The notes below the pieces were generated by a model. It was not told the DNA's origin. It was given only the letters and a program-made list of their open reading frames with translations, and searched no databases. This document shows, in pieces, positions 11,016 through 33,130 of a stretch of DNA of 51,071 nt. The translations under genes and the position numbers were made by a program. The stretch is from Marinifilum caeruleilacunae (GTDB taxonomy: Bacteria > Bacteroidota > Bacteroidia > Bacteroidales > Marinifilaceae): positions 1 through 51,071 of the forward strand of contig NZ_RZNH01000038.1 of NCBI RefSeq assembly GCF_013141825.1. The letters are read 5' to 3'. Every line of letters starts with the position of its first letter. The first letter of the stretch is position 1.

Positions 11016-11051
11016 GACTATCAAAATAGTTGTACGACTATAAAAATAGTC
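11016..11051 (+). promoter_or_regulatory. Twin operator palindromes upstream of the BlaI-type repressor
   Basis: Two dyads occur: ACTAT-CAAA-ATAGT at 11017-11030 and GACTAT-AAAA-ATAGTC at 11036-11051. Their centres are 20 bp apart, two helical turns, so two dimers would bind the same face. The second ends 14 bases before the ATG at 11065. BlaI/MecI repressors bind dyads of this general ACTA/TAGT form, so autorepression of the blaI-M56 operon is the likely purpose. A TTG at 11030 and TATATTAG at 11053 could be the covered promoter. Confidence 0.65.
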
Positions 11052-11064
11052 ATATATTAGTAGC

Positions 11065-11445
11065 ATGAAAGAATTAACGAAGGCAGAAGAACAGATTATG
11101 CAATACCTTTGGAAGCTTGAAAAAGCTTTCCTAAAGGATATTATTGAAGAGTTTCCGCAACCACGACCTGCATATACAACCATATCAACAGTGGTTAGAG
11201 TCTTGGTAAAAAAAGGTTTTATCGGATACGAAACCTTCGGGAAGGTCAATCAATACTATCCACTAGTAAGTAAGAAAGTGTATACCCGCGATTTTATGAA
11301 AGGAATGATTAAAAGTTTTTTCAACGATTCGGTTGGAGGGTTTACCTCATTCTTTGCCAAGGAGCAGGATTTATCGCTTTCGCAATTAGAAGAAATGAAA
11401 TCGCTGATTGAAGAACAAATTCAAAACAAAAAAGAAAATGACTGA
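11065..11445 (+). CDS. BlaI/MecI/CopY-family transcriptional repressor
   Basis: A 126-residue winged-helix repressor. The N-terminal domain begins KELTKAEEQIMQYLWKLEKA, the standard start of the family, with the recognition region YTTISTVVRVLVKKGFIGYE; the C-terminal half is a helical dimerisation arm. In BlaI/MecI systems the repressor is cleaved after the partner membrane protease senses a signal. Here the stop overlaps the start of an M56 protease gene by eight bases, so the pair is translationally coupled. Twin palindromes upstream make autoregulation likely. The inducer here is unknown; nothing in the window encodes a beta-lactamase. Confidence 0.93.
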   Translation: MKELTKAEEQIMQYLWKLEKAFLKDIIEEFPQPRPAYTTISTVVRVLVKKGFIGYETFGKVNQYYPLVSKKVYTRDFMKGMIKSFFNDSVGGFTSFFAKEQDLSLSQLEEMKSLIEEQIQNKKEND

Positions 11446-12790
11446 GTTCTTGCAATACCTTATTGAAAGCTCATTGTGCATGACTGCTCTTTACTTCTTA
11501 TACAAGTTTGTATTGGAAAGAGATACTTTTGTAATGCGCAACCGCATTTACTTGCTGTTTTCCGTTCTTATTTCCTTACTGATACCATTGCTGTCCTTTT
11601 CCATCGATCCTGAAAAAAGCATGGTGGTGAATCAGTTTACCCTGGATACCGCTACAAATTTTAAAGCAGAAATTACAGGAGGAATACAATTGGCCGAGGA
11701 ATCAGTTCAACTCAAACCAATTTCGATTCTGTTATTGGTTTATTTGTTGGGCGTTCTGATCTCATTTCTTCGCATATCAAAACATCTAACAAAAATTTTA
11801 AAAACAATTTTTGCCAATGAAATTGTACATCAAAACAATTTAAAAATTGTATCTGTTCAGGAAAATACTTCGCCTTATTCTTTCTTTCGCTATGTTTTTC
11901 TGAATCCTCGAATTACAAGTAAATCTGAACAAAATCATATTCTTCTGCACGAATCGGTTCATGTAAATCAATATCATACTCTAGATTTGATACTGGTTGA
12001 AATGGTAAAGATTTTCATGTGGTTTAATCCTTTCATATACTTTATTCAGCACTCATTGGTTGAGATGCATGAATATTTAGCAGACAGAGCTTGTATTAAT
12101 TTGGGGGCCGATAAAATTGAATACCAGAATGCCCTGGTACAAAATATCGAAGGGCGAATGAATTTTGCCCTTACCAGTGCATTCAATTCATCATTAACAT
12201 TAAAGAGAATTAAAATGATAAAAAAAATAAAAAGCTCCAGAATAACGAATTTAAAATTGATATTGGTTTTCCCAATCCTGTTTTTTTCCGTTCTATCTTT
12301 TGGTTTCATTACATCTACTCCTGCTGCTTTAGAAGGAAATTTTGAAGGATACTATGAACCAGATCAATTTCACCAACCCGTTCCAACAGGAAATAAAATT
12401 TATATGACTTCGGGATATGGCCAACGCATGCATCCTATTCTAAAGAAGAAAATGTTTCATCGAGGGATTGATATTGCTGCACCTAAAGGAACAGATATTT
12501 ATTCGATTGCCGATGGTGTTGTGCGAAAAGTGAACCTGGCCTTTGAACAAGGAAAGGGACACGGACGATTTGTAATTGTAGACTATGCCAACGGATTGTC
12601 GGCCCTGTATTCGCAAATGGATTCCTACGCGGTAAAGGAAGGACAAAAGGTAAAGGCTGGCGAGGTATTGGGAGCCATTGGTTCATCGGGTACCTCTACA
12701 GGACCACATTTGCATCTTGAACTTAAAAAGGATGGCAAAAATGTAAATCCGGAAGATTACATATCCACCGATATCTATAAGAAAAAGTAA
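11438..12790 (+). CDS. M56 (BlaR1-type) membrane protease fused to M23 peptidase domain
   Basis: A 450-residue protein; I chose the ATG at 11438, which overlaps the repressor stop (ATGACTGA), over an upstream in-frame start. Hydrophobic helices at about 3-25, 36-55, 96-117 and 266-287 surround an M56 zinc-protease domain with HESVH at 171-175. After the fourth helix comes an M23/LytM domain: SGYGQRMHP, the zinc motif HRGID at 341-345 and HLHLE at 424-428, all ligands intact. BlaR1 proteins normally end in a penicillin-binding sensor; here that position holds a peptidoglycan endopeptidase-type domain, which should face the periplasm. It could sense or cut cell wall and trigger cleavage of the repressor (inference). 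Confidence 0.88.
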   Translation: MTEFLQYLIESSLCMTALYFLYKFVLERDTFVMRNRIYLLFSVLISLLIPLLSFSIDPEKSMVVNQFTLDTATNFKAEITGGIQLAEESVQLKPISILLLVYLLGVLISFLRISKHLTKILKTIFANEIVHQNNLKIVSVQENTSPYSFFRYVFLNPRITSKSEQNHILLHESVHVNQYHTLDLILVEMVKIFMWFNPFIYFIQHSLVEMHEYLADRACINLGADKIEYQNALVQNIEGRMNFALTSAFNSSLTLKRIKMIKKIKSSRITNLKLILVFPILFFSVLSFGFITSTPAALEGNFEGYYEPDQFHQPVPTGNKIYMTSGYGQRMHPILKKKMFHRGIDIAAPKGTDIYSIADGVVRKVNLAFEQGKGHGRFVIVDYANGLSALYSQMDSYAVKEGQKVKAGEVLGAIGSSGTSTGPHLHLELKKDGKNVNPEDYISTDIYKKK

Positions 12791-12821
12791 AAAAAAATGG
12801 GGGATTCTATGAGTCCCCCTA
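12789..12821 (-). terminator. Terminator between converging genes
   Basis: GGGGGA and TCCCCC form a six-pair stem with a nine-base loop. On the minus strand nine T follow, so it should end the 515-residue gene at 12825; it may also slow transcription from the M56-M23 gene. Confidence 0.7.
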
Positions 12822-29878: not shown

Positions 29879-29903
29879 AGTAATTGCTCCATTTTATTTT
29901 TTA
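29864..29903 (+). terminator. Terminator built into the end of purN
   Basis: GAGCAA-C-TACTTTAAAGTA-A-TTGCTC is a near-perfect dyad followed by CATTTTATTTTTT. It contains the last codons and the TAA stop of purN and lies between converging genes. Confidence 0.75.
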
Positions 29904-31211
29904 TTGAATTGCCAGATTGTTGGTAACTGAATCCTGTAGGAATTGTTCAGGAATATCATCGAATCCCTTTAATTCCAGCATCAATTTGTTTTTTAGTGTT
30001 TCAAATTGAGCCCTGTTTTCCTCTTTTACCGGTGCAACTGGTGGCGATTTCATTCTTAATGGATTAATTGGCGATCCATTTTTATGAACCCTAAAGTCAA
30101 GATGTGGACCGGTTGAAAGTCCTGATGAACCTACGTATCCAATGGTTTGGCCTTGTTTTACTCTTACTCCCGATTTCATTCCTTTTGCAAATCGTGATAA
30201 ATGCATGTAGGTGGTTGTGTAAACACTGTTGTGCTTGATTTTAAGGTAACGGCCACCACCATTTTTCTGGTATCCTTTTTTAATGATAAGACCATCGCCA
30301 ATGGTGTGAACAGGAGTTCCGGTTGGCGCTGCATAATCGATACCATGATGCGCCCTGTATCTTTTTAATACCGGGTGAAAACGTCGGTTCGAAAATCTTG
30401 AACTAATTCTGGAATAACGCAAAGGTGCTTTTAGAAATGCTTTTTGCAGACTTTTTCCTTCTTCATCGAAAAAGCCATCCTTTTCGCCTTCGCTAAAGGC
30501 AAATGCATAATTGTCCGATTTGTGGTGAATAAAATTTGCCGCAATTACTGTGATGTCATGAATGGGTTCATCATCTACGAACGCTTCTTCATAAATAATA
30601 TTGAATTCGTCGCCTTTCCCAATGCCAAAGAAATCGATGGTCCAGGCGTAAATTTCCGACAATTCGATAGACAAGACCGGATCGGCTTTGGCCTCAACCA
30701 TGGCATTCCACAGCGAGCTTTCTATGGTGCCTTTAATTTGCTTGCGTTTGTAAACGATTTCCTTTTCTCCTTTGTAAACATGAAGAGTATCGCGCAAATC
30801 GAATACGATATATTCTACAGGTGTATTTTCGTAAATGAAATACTCCGGTGTTTGTAAACTGTCTTTGGTAAAAAGTACCGAGTATTCGCGTCCCGATTTA
30901 ATTCTGCGAACATTGAATACTTTTTTTGCCTTTTTTGCGATTTTATCGATGGCAGCAAAAGAAACATCGTACTGTCTTAAAATGGTAGAGAGACTTTGGT
31001 TTCTTTTTACTTTGCTTTCTTCAACATCAAACTCATCAATTGGAAAGCCGTATTTCATATTAACAGGAACCAATTCGGTGGAATCAATTGCCTGGTGACT
31101 TTCCGATTTTACCTCTTCGGGAACATCAGACTTGAATTTTTTAAATAAGATTAGACCTGCTAATACGGCACCTGCAATAAGAAGTGTTTTATAGTTGAAG
31201 AACTTTTTCAT
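29901..31211 (-). CDS. Membrane-anchored M23-family peptidase
   Basis: A 436-residue protein; the ATG at 31211 is preferred because it puts the anchor helix (LLIAGAVLAGLILF) at the N terminus, whereas the upstream frame adds 18 charged residues. A periplasmic stretch with OapA/LysM-like features (residues about 60-240) leads to an M23 domain: HHGIDYAAP starting at residue 288 (HxxxD intact) and GPHLDFRV with His370 but Asp372 where most members have His. Such enzymes cut peptide cross-links of peptidoglycan. The His-to-Asp change may alter but need not abolish zinc binding. It converges on purN. Confidence 0.88.
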   Translation of the reverse strand: MKKFFNYKTLLIAGAVLAGLILFKKFKSDVPEEVKSESHQAIDSTELVPVNMKYGFPIDEFDVEESKVKRNQSLSTILRQYDVSFAAIDKIAKKAKKVFNVRRIKSGREYSVLFTKDSLQTPEYFIYENTPVEYIVFDLRDTLHVYKGEKEIVYKRKQIKGTIESSLWNAMVEAKADPVLSIELSEIYAWTIDFFGIGKGDEFNIIYEEAFVDDEPIHDITVIAANFIHHKSDNYAFAFSEGEKDGFFDEEGKSLQKAFLKAPLRYSRISSRFSNRRFHPVLKRYRAHHGIDYAAPTGTPVHTIGDGLIIKKGYQKNGGGRYLKIKHNSVYTTTYMHLSRFAKGMKSGVRVKQGQTIGYVGSSGLSTGPHLDFRVHKNGSPINPLRMKSPPVAPVKEENRAQFETLKNKLMLELKGFDDIPEQFLQDSVTNNLAIQ

Positions 31212-31327
31212 CTTGGCTTTTTTGAATTCGAGCCTAAAGGTATAACTATTTTTATAGTCATACAACTGAAAGAGGCGATCAATTCTACTATTTAAGCTTT
31301 TTTAATAATTAAAATTTAGGCTGATTG

Positions 31328-32194
31328 TTAAGATTTGATTTTATCAAAGCCTTGCCCGTAAACACCCATCACACTTCCAAGGGAAATAAATGCATCAGGA
31401 TCTACAAGTTTGATCATTTTTAAGATGGATTGCGAATCGCGCTTTTTAGCCAATACCATCAGAATTTTTACATCTTCCTTGCTGTATCCACCAGTTGCAT
31501 TAATAATGGTAAGGCCTTGATCCAAACCATGAATTACTTCTTTGCGAATCAATTCAGGTTTCTGGGTAAAAATAACAATCTGAACTGACTGCTTGCTTCC
31601 TTCAATAATCATGTCCACACAATATGCACTCACCCCCATGGTAACAAAACCATAAACTACCTGCTCTATCGATTGTTCCAAAAAGTAAGAAGAGGAGATA
31701 ATAATCACATCAATGGTGAGAAGCAACTGACCAGGACTGTAGTTTTTGTATTTGTTGATCATCATGGCCAGAATATCTGTTCCGCCTGTACTCCCACCAC
31801 GCGATAAAATCATTCCGGCACCTGCTCCAGCCATAATTCCACCAATAATGGCACACATAAACCGATCGGAAACTAAGGGTTCGGTAATAATAGACTGGAA
31901 CAACCAAAGGAAAAAAGAGATGACAGTAATGCCATACAGAGTTTTGATTCCAAAAGAGAAACCAAGAACACGCAAGGATACCAGCAAGAAAACCGTATTG
32001 ATTAAAAATACACTGTAACCTACCTTAATTCCCGTCACGAAATAAATCATGGTAGCAATACCACTTACTCCCGAACCTACAATCCCTGCCGGGATAATAA
32101 AACCGGTCCAGGCCAATGCACCAATTAGCAATCCTACCGTAATAATAAAATAGGTACGAATGTTTTCTGATAAACTGATTTTTTGATTCGCCAT
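31328..32194 (-). CDS. YitT-family membrane protein (copy 2)
   Basis: A 288-residue protein; the ATG at 32194 is chosen because the longer frame would overlap the gene upstream by 38 bases. Hydrophobic helices at the N-terminal 190 residues (IIPAGIVGSGVSGIATMIYF, GGIMAGAGAGMILSRGGSTGGTD) and a cytoplasmic DUF2179-type C-terminal domain (KREDVKILMVLAKKRDSQSI-like segment, DPDAFISLGSVMGVYGQGF). The family is of unknown function, sometimes suggested to be a transporter. It follows a paralog by ten bases; the two are a tandem pair of about 50 percent visible similarity. Confidence 0.88.
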   Translation of the reverse strand: MANQKISLSENIRTYFIITVGLLIGALAWTGFIIPAGIVGSGVSGIATMIYFVTGIKVGYSVFLINTVFLLVSLRVLGFSFGIKTLYGITVISFFLWLFQSIITEPLVSDRFMCAIIGGIMAGAGAGMILSRGGSTGGTDILAMMINKYKNYSPGQLLLTIDVIIISSSYFLEQSIEQVVYGFVTMGVSAYCVDMIIEGSKQSVQIVIFTQKPELIRKEVIHGLDQGLTIINATGGYSKEDVKILMVLAKKRDSQSILKMIKLVDPDAFISLGSVMGVYGQGFDKIKS

Positions 32195-32204
32195 TTTCTC
32201 TGTT

Positions 32205-33065
32205 TTACGCTCTAATTTCTTCAAAACCCAATCCGTAAACACCCATTACACTTCCCATGGAGATAAATGCTTTCGGATCTACTTCTTTAATTACCTTGAA
32301 TACATGCTGTGTTTCATGTTTTCGAACAACAATCATCAACATTTTGGTTTCTTCGCGGGTATACCAACCAGTGGTATGTACCATGGTAAGTCCGCGACCG
32401 GTTACTTCGCTCAATTTCTCAGCAACATCTTCATGTTGTTGGGATATGATAAAAAGTTGAGCCGATTGCTTTGAACCGGAAATCATCATGTCGATGGTAT
32501 AAGCAGCAATTGCCATTTCAACATACCCATAAACGATGGTTGAAATGTCTTTAAATATAAAATACGACGATGCAATAATGAAAATATCGATGTAAAGAAT
32601 AATTCTACCCGGGCCAACGTTTTTGTATTTGTTGATCATCATGGCAACAATATCCGTACCTCCTGTACTTCCACCTTGCGTGATCGTGATGCCAACACCA
32701 ACACCAGCCAGAATACCACCAATGATACTGGCCATAAATTTATCGTCGACTAAAGGCTCGGTAATCCAACGTTGCTGTAATGCTAAGAGAACCGAGCCTA
32801 CAACAATGGCAAATATGGTTTTGATTCCAAACCTACTTCCCAAAATACGGAGTGCAATTAATATCAAAACCGAATTAATGGCAAAAAATGAATAACCTAC
32901 AGGGATTGCTTTTCCTGTGGCATAATAAATAATGGTACCAATACCTCCAACGCCTCCTGCTACAATCTCAGAAGGAATAAGAAAAGCTGTCCATCCAAAG
33001 CTGTAGATGAACAATCCCAAAGTAATAATCGCGTACGATTTTATTTCAGAAATTGATATTTTCAT
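32205..33065 (-). CDS. YitT-family membrane protein (copy 1)
   Basis: A 286-residue protein; the ATG at 33065 (MKISISEIKSYAIITLGLFI) replaces a longer frame with no hydrophobic lead. Same architecture as the next gene: six or so helices with the GGSTGGTDIVAMMINKYKN motif, then the soluble C-terminal domain ending DPKAFISMGSVMGVYGLGFE. The pair probably arose by tandem duplication and may form a heteromer (inference). A terminator separates it from leuS upstream. Confidence 0.88.
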   Translation of the reverse strand: MKISISEIKSYAIITLGLFIYSFGWTAFLIPSEIVAGGVGGIGTIIYYATGKAIPVGYSFFAINSVLILIALRILGSRFGIKTIFAIVVGSVLLALQQRWITEPLVDDKFMASIIGGILAGVGVGITITQGGSTGGTDIVAMMINKYKNVGPGRIILYIDIFIIASSYFIFKDISTIVYGYVEMAIAAYTIDMMISGSKQSAQLFIISQQHEDVAEKLSEVTGRGLTMVHTTGWYTREETKMLMIVVRKHETQHVFKVIKEVDPKAFISMGSVMGVYGLGFEEIRA

Positions 33066-33089
33066 TGATGTGTTAGTGTTTAGATGTAA

Positions 33090-33130
33090 GAAAAAAGGCC
33101 TCATTTTACCAAGAAAACGAAGCCTTTTGT
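33090..33130 (-). terminator. Terminator after leuS
   Basis: On the minus strand AAAAGGC pairs with GCCTTTT and the arms extend inward (TC/GA, TTTT/AAAA), with a T run after it. It lies between the leuS stop at 33156 and the first YitT gene. Confidence 0.75.

Follow-up and report, generated by a model that had tools for sequence, protein, structure and literature searches.

A candidate BlaR1-like switch with an M23 receptor domain and a predicted M23 endopeptidase target in Marinifilum caeruleilacunae

A two-gene locus in Marinifilum caeruleilacunae encodes a BlaI-type repressor (P0002) and an M56-family protease that ends in an M23/LytM domain (P0001). The locus lies in a stretch of 51,071 nucleotides from contig NZ_RZNH01000038.1, which is referred to here as the window. 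We favor, with slightly better than even confidence, a BlaR1-type switch that has an M23 receptor and an input shifted from beta-lactams to the cell wall and that would control both its own operon and a gene for an M23 endopeptidase (P0003). The domains, the operators, the conservation of these operators across relatives, and a glutamine at a catalytic position of the M23 domain (Gln393) can all be read directly from the sequences. A more specific version of this reading is tentative and falls somewhat short of an even chance: cross-link cleavage would be under closed-loop control. A copy of an M23 endopeptidase that does not cut would gauge the amount of its substrate on the periplasmic side, and a BlaR1-type protease together with BlaI would adjust how strongly a functional M23 endopeptidase is transcribed.

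A standing question is how bacteria keep endopeptidases that open the wall in step with its synthesis, and the control of hydrolase expression is described as poorly understood (PMC8278236). The switch would offer a compact candidate answer in one lineage, consisting of one repressor, three operator copies, and one candidate enzyme.

Table 1. Features of the proposed switch in the window (positions on the forward strand).
Feature	Position	Strand	Remarks
Distal BlaI-type operator, ACTATCAAAATAGT	11017..11030		Putative; 48 bases 5' of the blaI ATG
Proximal operator, ACTATAAAAATAGT	11037..11050		Putative; 20 bp from the distal operator
blaI-type repressor, 126 aa (P0002)	11065..11445	+	
M56-M23 fusion receptor, 450 aa (P0001)	11438..12790	+	8-base overlap with blaI
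Peptidase_M56 domain, residues 36-261	11543..12220	+	Pfam, above cut-off
HESVH motif of the M56 domain	11948-11962	+	Begins at residue 171
Peptidase_M23/LytM domain, residues 340-438	12455..12751	+	Pfam, above cut-off; predicted to be periplasmic
Gln393 codon (catalytic His in M23 enzymes)	12614..12616	+	Alignment
Hairpin, probable terminator	12799..12819		-15.8 kcal/mol, z -2.98
ShyC/ShyA/MepM-like M23 endopeptidase (predicted target), 436 aa (P0003)	29901..31211	-	Csd3_N2 domain
Endopeptidase operator, ACTATAAAAATAGT	31245..31258		Putative; 34 bases 5' of the endopeptidase ATG; third window match of the 14-mer

The two-gene locus and its products

An earlier note on this DNA had described a blaI-type repressor gene overlapped by a gene for an M56 protease with a C-terminal M23 domain, and this architecture is borne out. 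The domain search that the note proposed for the 450-residue product recovers both M56 and M23 above the Pfam cut-offs (Table 1). The Penicillinase_R domain of P0002 covers residues 4-117 and scores 101.1 bits against a Pfam cut-off of 22.6, and the protein matches MecI (1okr) with an E value of 1.5e-11. The M56 domain of P0001 scores 46.3 bits (Pfam cut-off 31), with the HExxH motif present as HESVH. In the same domain search, no penicillin-binding sensor was found at the C-terminus of P0001, where Peptidase_M23 is located instead. Because of this C-terminus and a score far under the NCBIfam BlaR1 cut-offs (26.8 of 1200 bits), P0001 is BlaR1-like, not a BlaR1.

Hydropathy analysis of P0001, by a method that missed a likely first segment, marks segments at residues 31-49, 95-113, 182-200, and 274-292, a pattern compatible with the BlaR1 layout. 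Homology and hydropathy together point to a periplasmic location for the M23 domain. A full-length AlphaFold2 model built from 6 near sequences was discarded, as its mean pLDDT was 32. The gene downstream of the fusion is convergent, and a hairpin between the two convergent genes probably terminates the two-gene operon.

In BlaR1, as described from cryo-EM, the sensor lies outside, the M56 domain faces the cytoplasm, and BlaI is cut directly between Asn101 and Phe102 (PMC9834060). P0002 has Phe96-Phe97 at the position aligned to the BlaI/MecI cut. Phe97, at the aligned P1' position, is kept in 18/18 family repressors and in 9 of the 16 distant ones.

Five further BlaI/M56 pairs are encoded in the same genome, with outer parts that are coiled-coil, carboxypeptidase-regulatory, or TonB_C. 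Since the other five of the six pairs have different outer parts, the M23 outer part distinguishes the pair in the window. It is possible that these five pairs form a set of envelope sensors. Each of the pairs at loci L001, L002, L003, L005, and L006 of genome G000 has its own upstream palindrome and a different outer part. The other pairs were rejected as owners of the window operator, given that their palindromes differ. Locus L007, whose Pfam M56 match is below the cut-off, was left out as an M48-like protease by eye.

Operators and the predicted second target

Two tandem palindromes of the form ACTATN4ATAGT lie upstream of blaI. The distal operator is exact and in the same position at 17/17 family loci, and the proximal one has no mismatch at 11 loci, one at 3, and two at 3; these counts cover the 17 loci where the script found blaI, a gene that is also present at L100, L119, L120, L123, and L032. 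The proximal operator is flanked by TTG and TATATTAG, 20 bases apart, which we take to resemble the -33/-7 promoter elements of Bacteroidota. Both sites recur at the same distances in front of a distant fusion from another family (L118, 34% identical), the distal one with 2 mismatches.

The 14-mer ACTATN4ATAGT has three matches in the window against 0.06 expected. Across the whole genome, it occurs at 6 places versus 23 for the reversed control and is hence not enriched; as its count does not exceed that control, the 14-mer alone was rejected as a regulon finder. The third match in the window lies before the gene for P0003, 17 kb from the blaI operon. With its flank TTGTATG, it has the same form as the proximal blaI operator, and it sits between TTG and TACCTTTA with the spacing seen at blaI. 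The earlier note had missed both the operators and this predicted second target.

A 21-mer, TTGTANGACTATNAAAATAGT, has exactly two exact matches in the 5.27-Mb genome, the blaI promoter and the endopeptidase promoter. There are none at one or two mismatches and 10 at three, and the reversed control gives 11 at up to three. As the 21-mer was derived from these very sites, relatives give the fair test. In 13 genomes, comprising the own genome and 12 relatives, the looser TTGTNNNACTATNNNNATAGT has 19 exact matches, of which 11 are at blaI and 8 at the endopeptidase gene. None falls outside the two promoters in these 13 genomes, one of which (G026) is without any exact match, and at one mismatch the counts in this set are not above the control.

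The endopeptidase operator was surveyed at 30 loci, drawn from 55 family genomes with an orthologue. In system-bearing genomes outside genus g17, it is present with at most one mismatch at 13 of 14 loci, 9 of them exact; G026, where the system is present, has a site with two mismatches. Genus g17 (4 genomes) lacks the endopeptidase site at 4/4 loci and retains the fusion and the distal blaI operator. Among genomes without a blaI orthologue, G010 has no site, G016 has one with two mismatches, and G070 has one with a single mismatch. One mismatch is also seen in the site of the fragmentary genome G005, where a search for blaI found none. The other eight loci, from other genera, show 2-5 mismatches and carry little weight because the locus start there is not at the start codon. 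Across the endopeptidase loci, the palindrome arms are constant and the 4-base spacer and flanks vary.

The recognition-helix region of BlaI, AYTTISTVVRVL, is identical in the genera with the endopeptidase site. In g17, this region is altered (ANTTVATVIRIL and like sequences), the proximal blaI operator has diverged, and no endopeptidase site is present. Of the 17 family genomes that carry the fusion, 13 have its gene on the same contig as the endopeptidase gene. The operator sites suggest that the BlaI switch controls its own operon and the predicted M23 endopeptidase P0003.

P0003 contains a Csd3_N2 domain, over its cut-off, and an M23 domain. Among NCBIfam models, ShyC, MepM, and ShyA are its nearest matches over most of its length, with all three scores below the equivalog cut-offs; the ShyC model gives 232 bits over residues 60-418 against an equivalog cut-off of 700. 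The complete zinc and catalytic set of the ShyA/ShyC/MepM type was not found in P0003. The zinc-binding histidine of HxH, which is the third zinc ligand, is an aspartate (PHLDF) in 30/30 orthologues, and for this reason endopeptidase activity is given here as a prediction only.

Two other features were recorded near such sites. Behind the endopeptidase promoter, positions 31328-33104 of the window hold two neighboring genes for YitT/DUF2179 membrane proteins. In four Marinifilum genomes, ACTATGAAAATAGT is kept about 0.1 kb 5' of a secreted-protein gene (position 1501 of loci L088 and L089). The site before the secreted-protein gene in G001-G004 was dropped as a BlaI target, as the TTGT flank is missing.

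The M23 receptor domain and competing readings

The M23 domain of P0001 has the fold and both zinc motifs, HxxxD and HxH. Its zinc ligands (HRGID, residues 341-345, and HLHLE, residues 424-428) are intact in the residue alignment, as the earlier note had read them. The second catalytic histidine, about 30 residues before HxH, is absent from P0001. Gln393 replaces this non-ligand residue in 18/18 fusions of the P0001 family, and the same position is histidine in 22 of 25 other M23 proteins. Gln393 aligns with EnpA His78, which is named as the equivalent catalytic histidine in PMC9662197, and in LytM both H260 and H291 are reported as essential (PMC5519744). The P0001 domain is a member of the M23 family by fold and probably not a working enzyme; because glutamine replaces the catalytic histidine, it probably binds peptidoglycan without cutting it. 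The suggestion of a signaling protease that senses or processes the wall directly therefore stands in part. The BlaR1-like architecture, the M23 domain at the sensor position, and the conserved BlaI pairing and operators favor the general idea. Direct processing by P0001 is unsupported, given the glutamine in every fusion of the family.

An unlikely reading, which still carries some weight, is that the M23 domain serves for protein docking, as in EnvC or NlpD. The receptor would then sense an amidase, a divisome component, or an outer-membrane factor and not peptidoglycan, with the same output. M23 folds with an incomplete catalytic set act mainly in protein interactions (PMC9662197 section 7), LytM domains of DipM and EnvC are among the best fold matches of the P0001 domain, and the zinc motifs are wholly lost in two distant fusions. 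However, P0001 retains the zinc ligands and the arginine aligned to EnpA Arg21. Moreover, 12 of the 16 distant fusions have all five M23 residues, and Amidase_3 is added in three; the complete sets and the added amidase point to wall binding or cutting.

It is quite unlikely that the endopeptidase operator is read by the BlaI paralogue on C102 (57% identical, with an M56-TonB_C partner), in which case the two halves of the proposed system would be different switches. The palindrome of the C102 pair itself, ACTAAAATTATAGT, is one base off the consensus, making cross-reading conceivable. This paralogue is also kept in G010, G016, and G070, where the window blaI is absent, and the site in G070 is still within one mismatch. 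On the other hand, the 14-base core of the endopeptidase site in the own genome equals the proximal window-blaI operator and differs from the C102 palindrome, and the other BlaI promoters of this genome match the 21-mer with no fewer than 3 mismatches. The site is also degraded in G016 and absent in G010, both of which have the paralogue only.

Very unlikely is a tolerated Gln393, with the M23 domain acting as a membrane-tethered hydrolase and wall turnover itself as the signal. The intact zinc ligands and first histidine of HxH in P0001, along with the complete set in most distant fusions, are in keeping with such activity, but both LytM histidines are reported as essential (PMC5519744), and Gln393, at the position equivalent to EnpA His78 (PMC9662197), is fixed throughout the family. 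Least probable is an ordinary self-regulating BlaI/M56 pair with a coincidental endopeptidase site and its output elsewhere: g17 has the fusion without the site, and blaI is the sole exact operator match in the distant genome G266, but position, promoter-like spacing, and palindrome arms are constant over four genera in which spacer and flanks change.

For the wall-sensing BlaR1-type switch, we infer topology, repression, BlaI cleavage, ligand, and signal direction as follows. In the resting state, a BlaI dimer would occupy the two operators in its own promoter and the one at the endopeptidase promoter, and both would be repressed. Like BlaR1, the fusion would span the inner membrane, its M56 domain facing the cytoplasm and its M23 domain reaching into the periplasm. 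This outer domain, with a zinc site and groove but with glutamine at the catalytic position, would bind stem peptides or cross-links and would not consume them. Altered occupancy of this domain would activate M56, which would cut BlaI beside the conserved Phe97. Both operons would then be derepressed, the endopeptidase would open cross-links, and newly made receptor and repressor would reset the switch. A cytoplasmic co-signal is possible as well, since the BlaI of Bacillus licheniformis answers to a peptidoglycan dipeptide.

Known systems and distant fusions

Like BlaI-BlaR1 and MecI-MecR1, the locus combines a BlaI-family repressor, palindromes in its own promoter, an M56 HExxH partner, a C-terminal domain predicted to be extracytoplasmic, and a phenylalanine at the aligned P1' position. 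The BlaR1 sensor is related to class D beta-lactamases (PMC9834060), and the output is a beta-lactamase. Unlike BlaR1, P0001 has an M23 domain in place of the penicillin-binding sensor, and the predicted target is an M23 wall hydrolase and not a resistance gene. If the closed-loop version is true, the switch would parallel BlaR1 on the peptidoglycan side: a beta-lactamase is under the control of a modified form of such an enzyme in BlaR1.

To our knowledge, EnvC, NlpD, DipM, and Csd2 are not fused to a signaling protease and are not known to act via a repressor. P0001 resembles these degenerate LytM regulators in its retained M23 fold, altered catalytic set, and presumed regulatory role (PMC9662197). 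BlaI repressors are also tied to wall turnover in B. licheniformis, where a peptidoglycan dipeptide binds BlaI/MecI and weakens its complex with DNA (PMC3305447). In contrast to the switch proposed for the window, the B. licheniformis fragment acts on BlaI in the cytoplasm, and the sensor is a penicillin receptor.

Combinations of M23 and M56 peptidases are recorded in section 10 of PMC9662197, among combinations that account for <1% of hits. That section describes no function, operators, or targets for M56-M23 and states that M56 had yet to be shown to take part in wall cleavage. The earlier note had given such combinations as annotated in Bacteroidota and knew of no described function. A literature search of partial coverage found nothing that assigns a function to M56-M23, connects BlaI with an M23 endopeptidase, or places an M23 receptor in a BlaI switch. 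The architecture is already published, and the switch function, the operators, and the target are predicted here. The present reading would give this architecture its first predicted target and a mechanistic reason for its form, the lost catalytic histidine. If its closed-loop version is correct, M56 receptors whose outer parts are of the TonB, carboxypeptidase-regulatory, M23, and M23-amidase kinds would make up a broad group of Bacteroidota envelope sensors.

Wall processing may hold in distant M56-M23 fusions, because most of them keep all five M23 residues. In 3 genomes of family f87, an amidase domain follows M23 in the receptor. The f87 loci L205, L207, and L211 are BlaI-paired M56-M23-amidase triple fusions, with Amidase_3 identified by Pfam in L205 and by motif in L207 and L211, so that each receptor carries a pair of wall-hydrolase domains. 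In genus g51 (G168 and G392), which belongs to the same class, the gene order is blaI, an M56-M23 fusion with a complete M23 site, and a separate M23-LysM gene. This last gene is on the same strand, 74 (G168) and 31 (G392) bases after the fusion, and its domains were determined for G168. A separate M23 gene occurs near 2/14 distant fusion loci versus 0/14 control loci. Since both of these loci belong to g51, the gene order is one lineage's link, and M23 genes were rejected as general neighbors of M56-M23 fusions.

On the M56 tree, the fusion label has to change 7 times, and well-supported branches force at least 3 of these changes; either repeated joining or repeated loss of M23 may fit this tree. 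An unrelated M56-M23 fusion (L223, G751) has the same His-to-Gln change (YAQL). At L123 (G334), an M56 protein with two consecutive M23 domains adjoins blaI.
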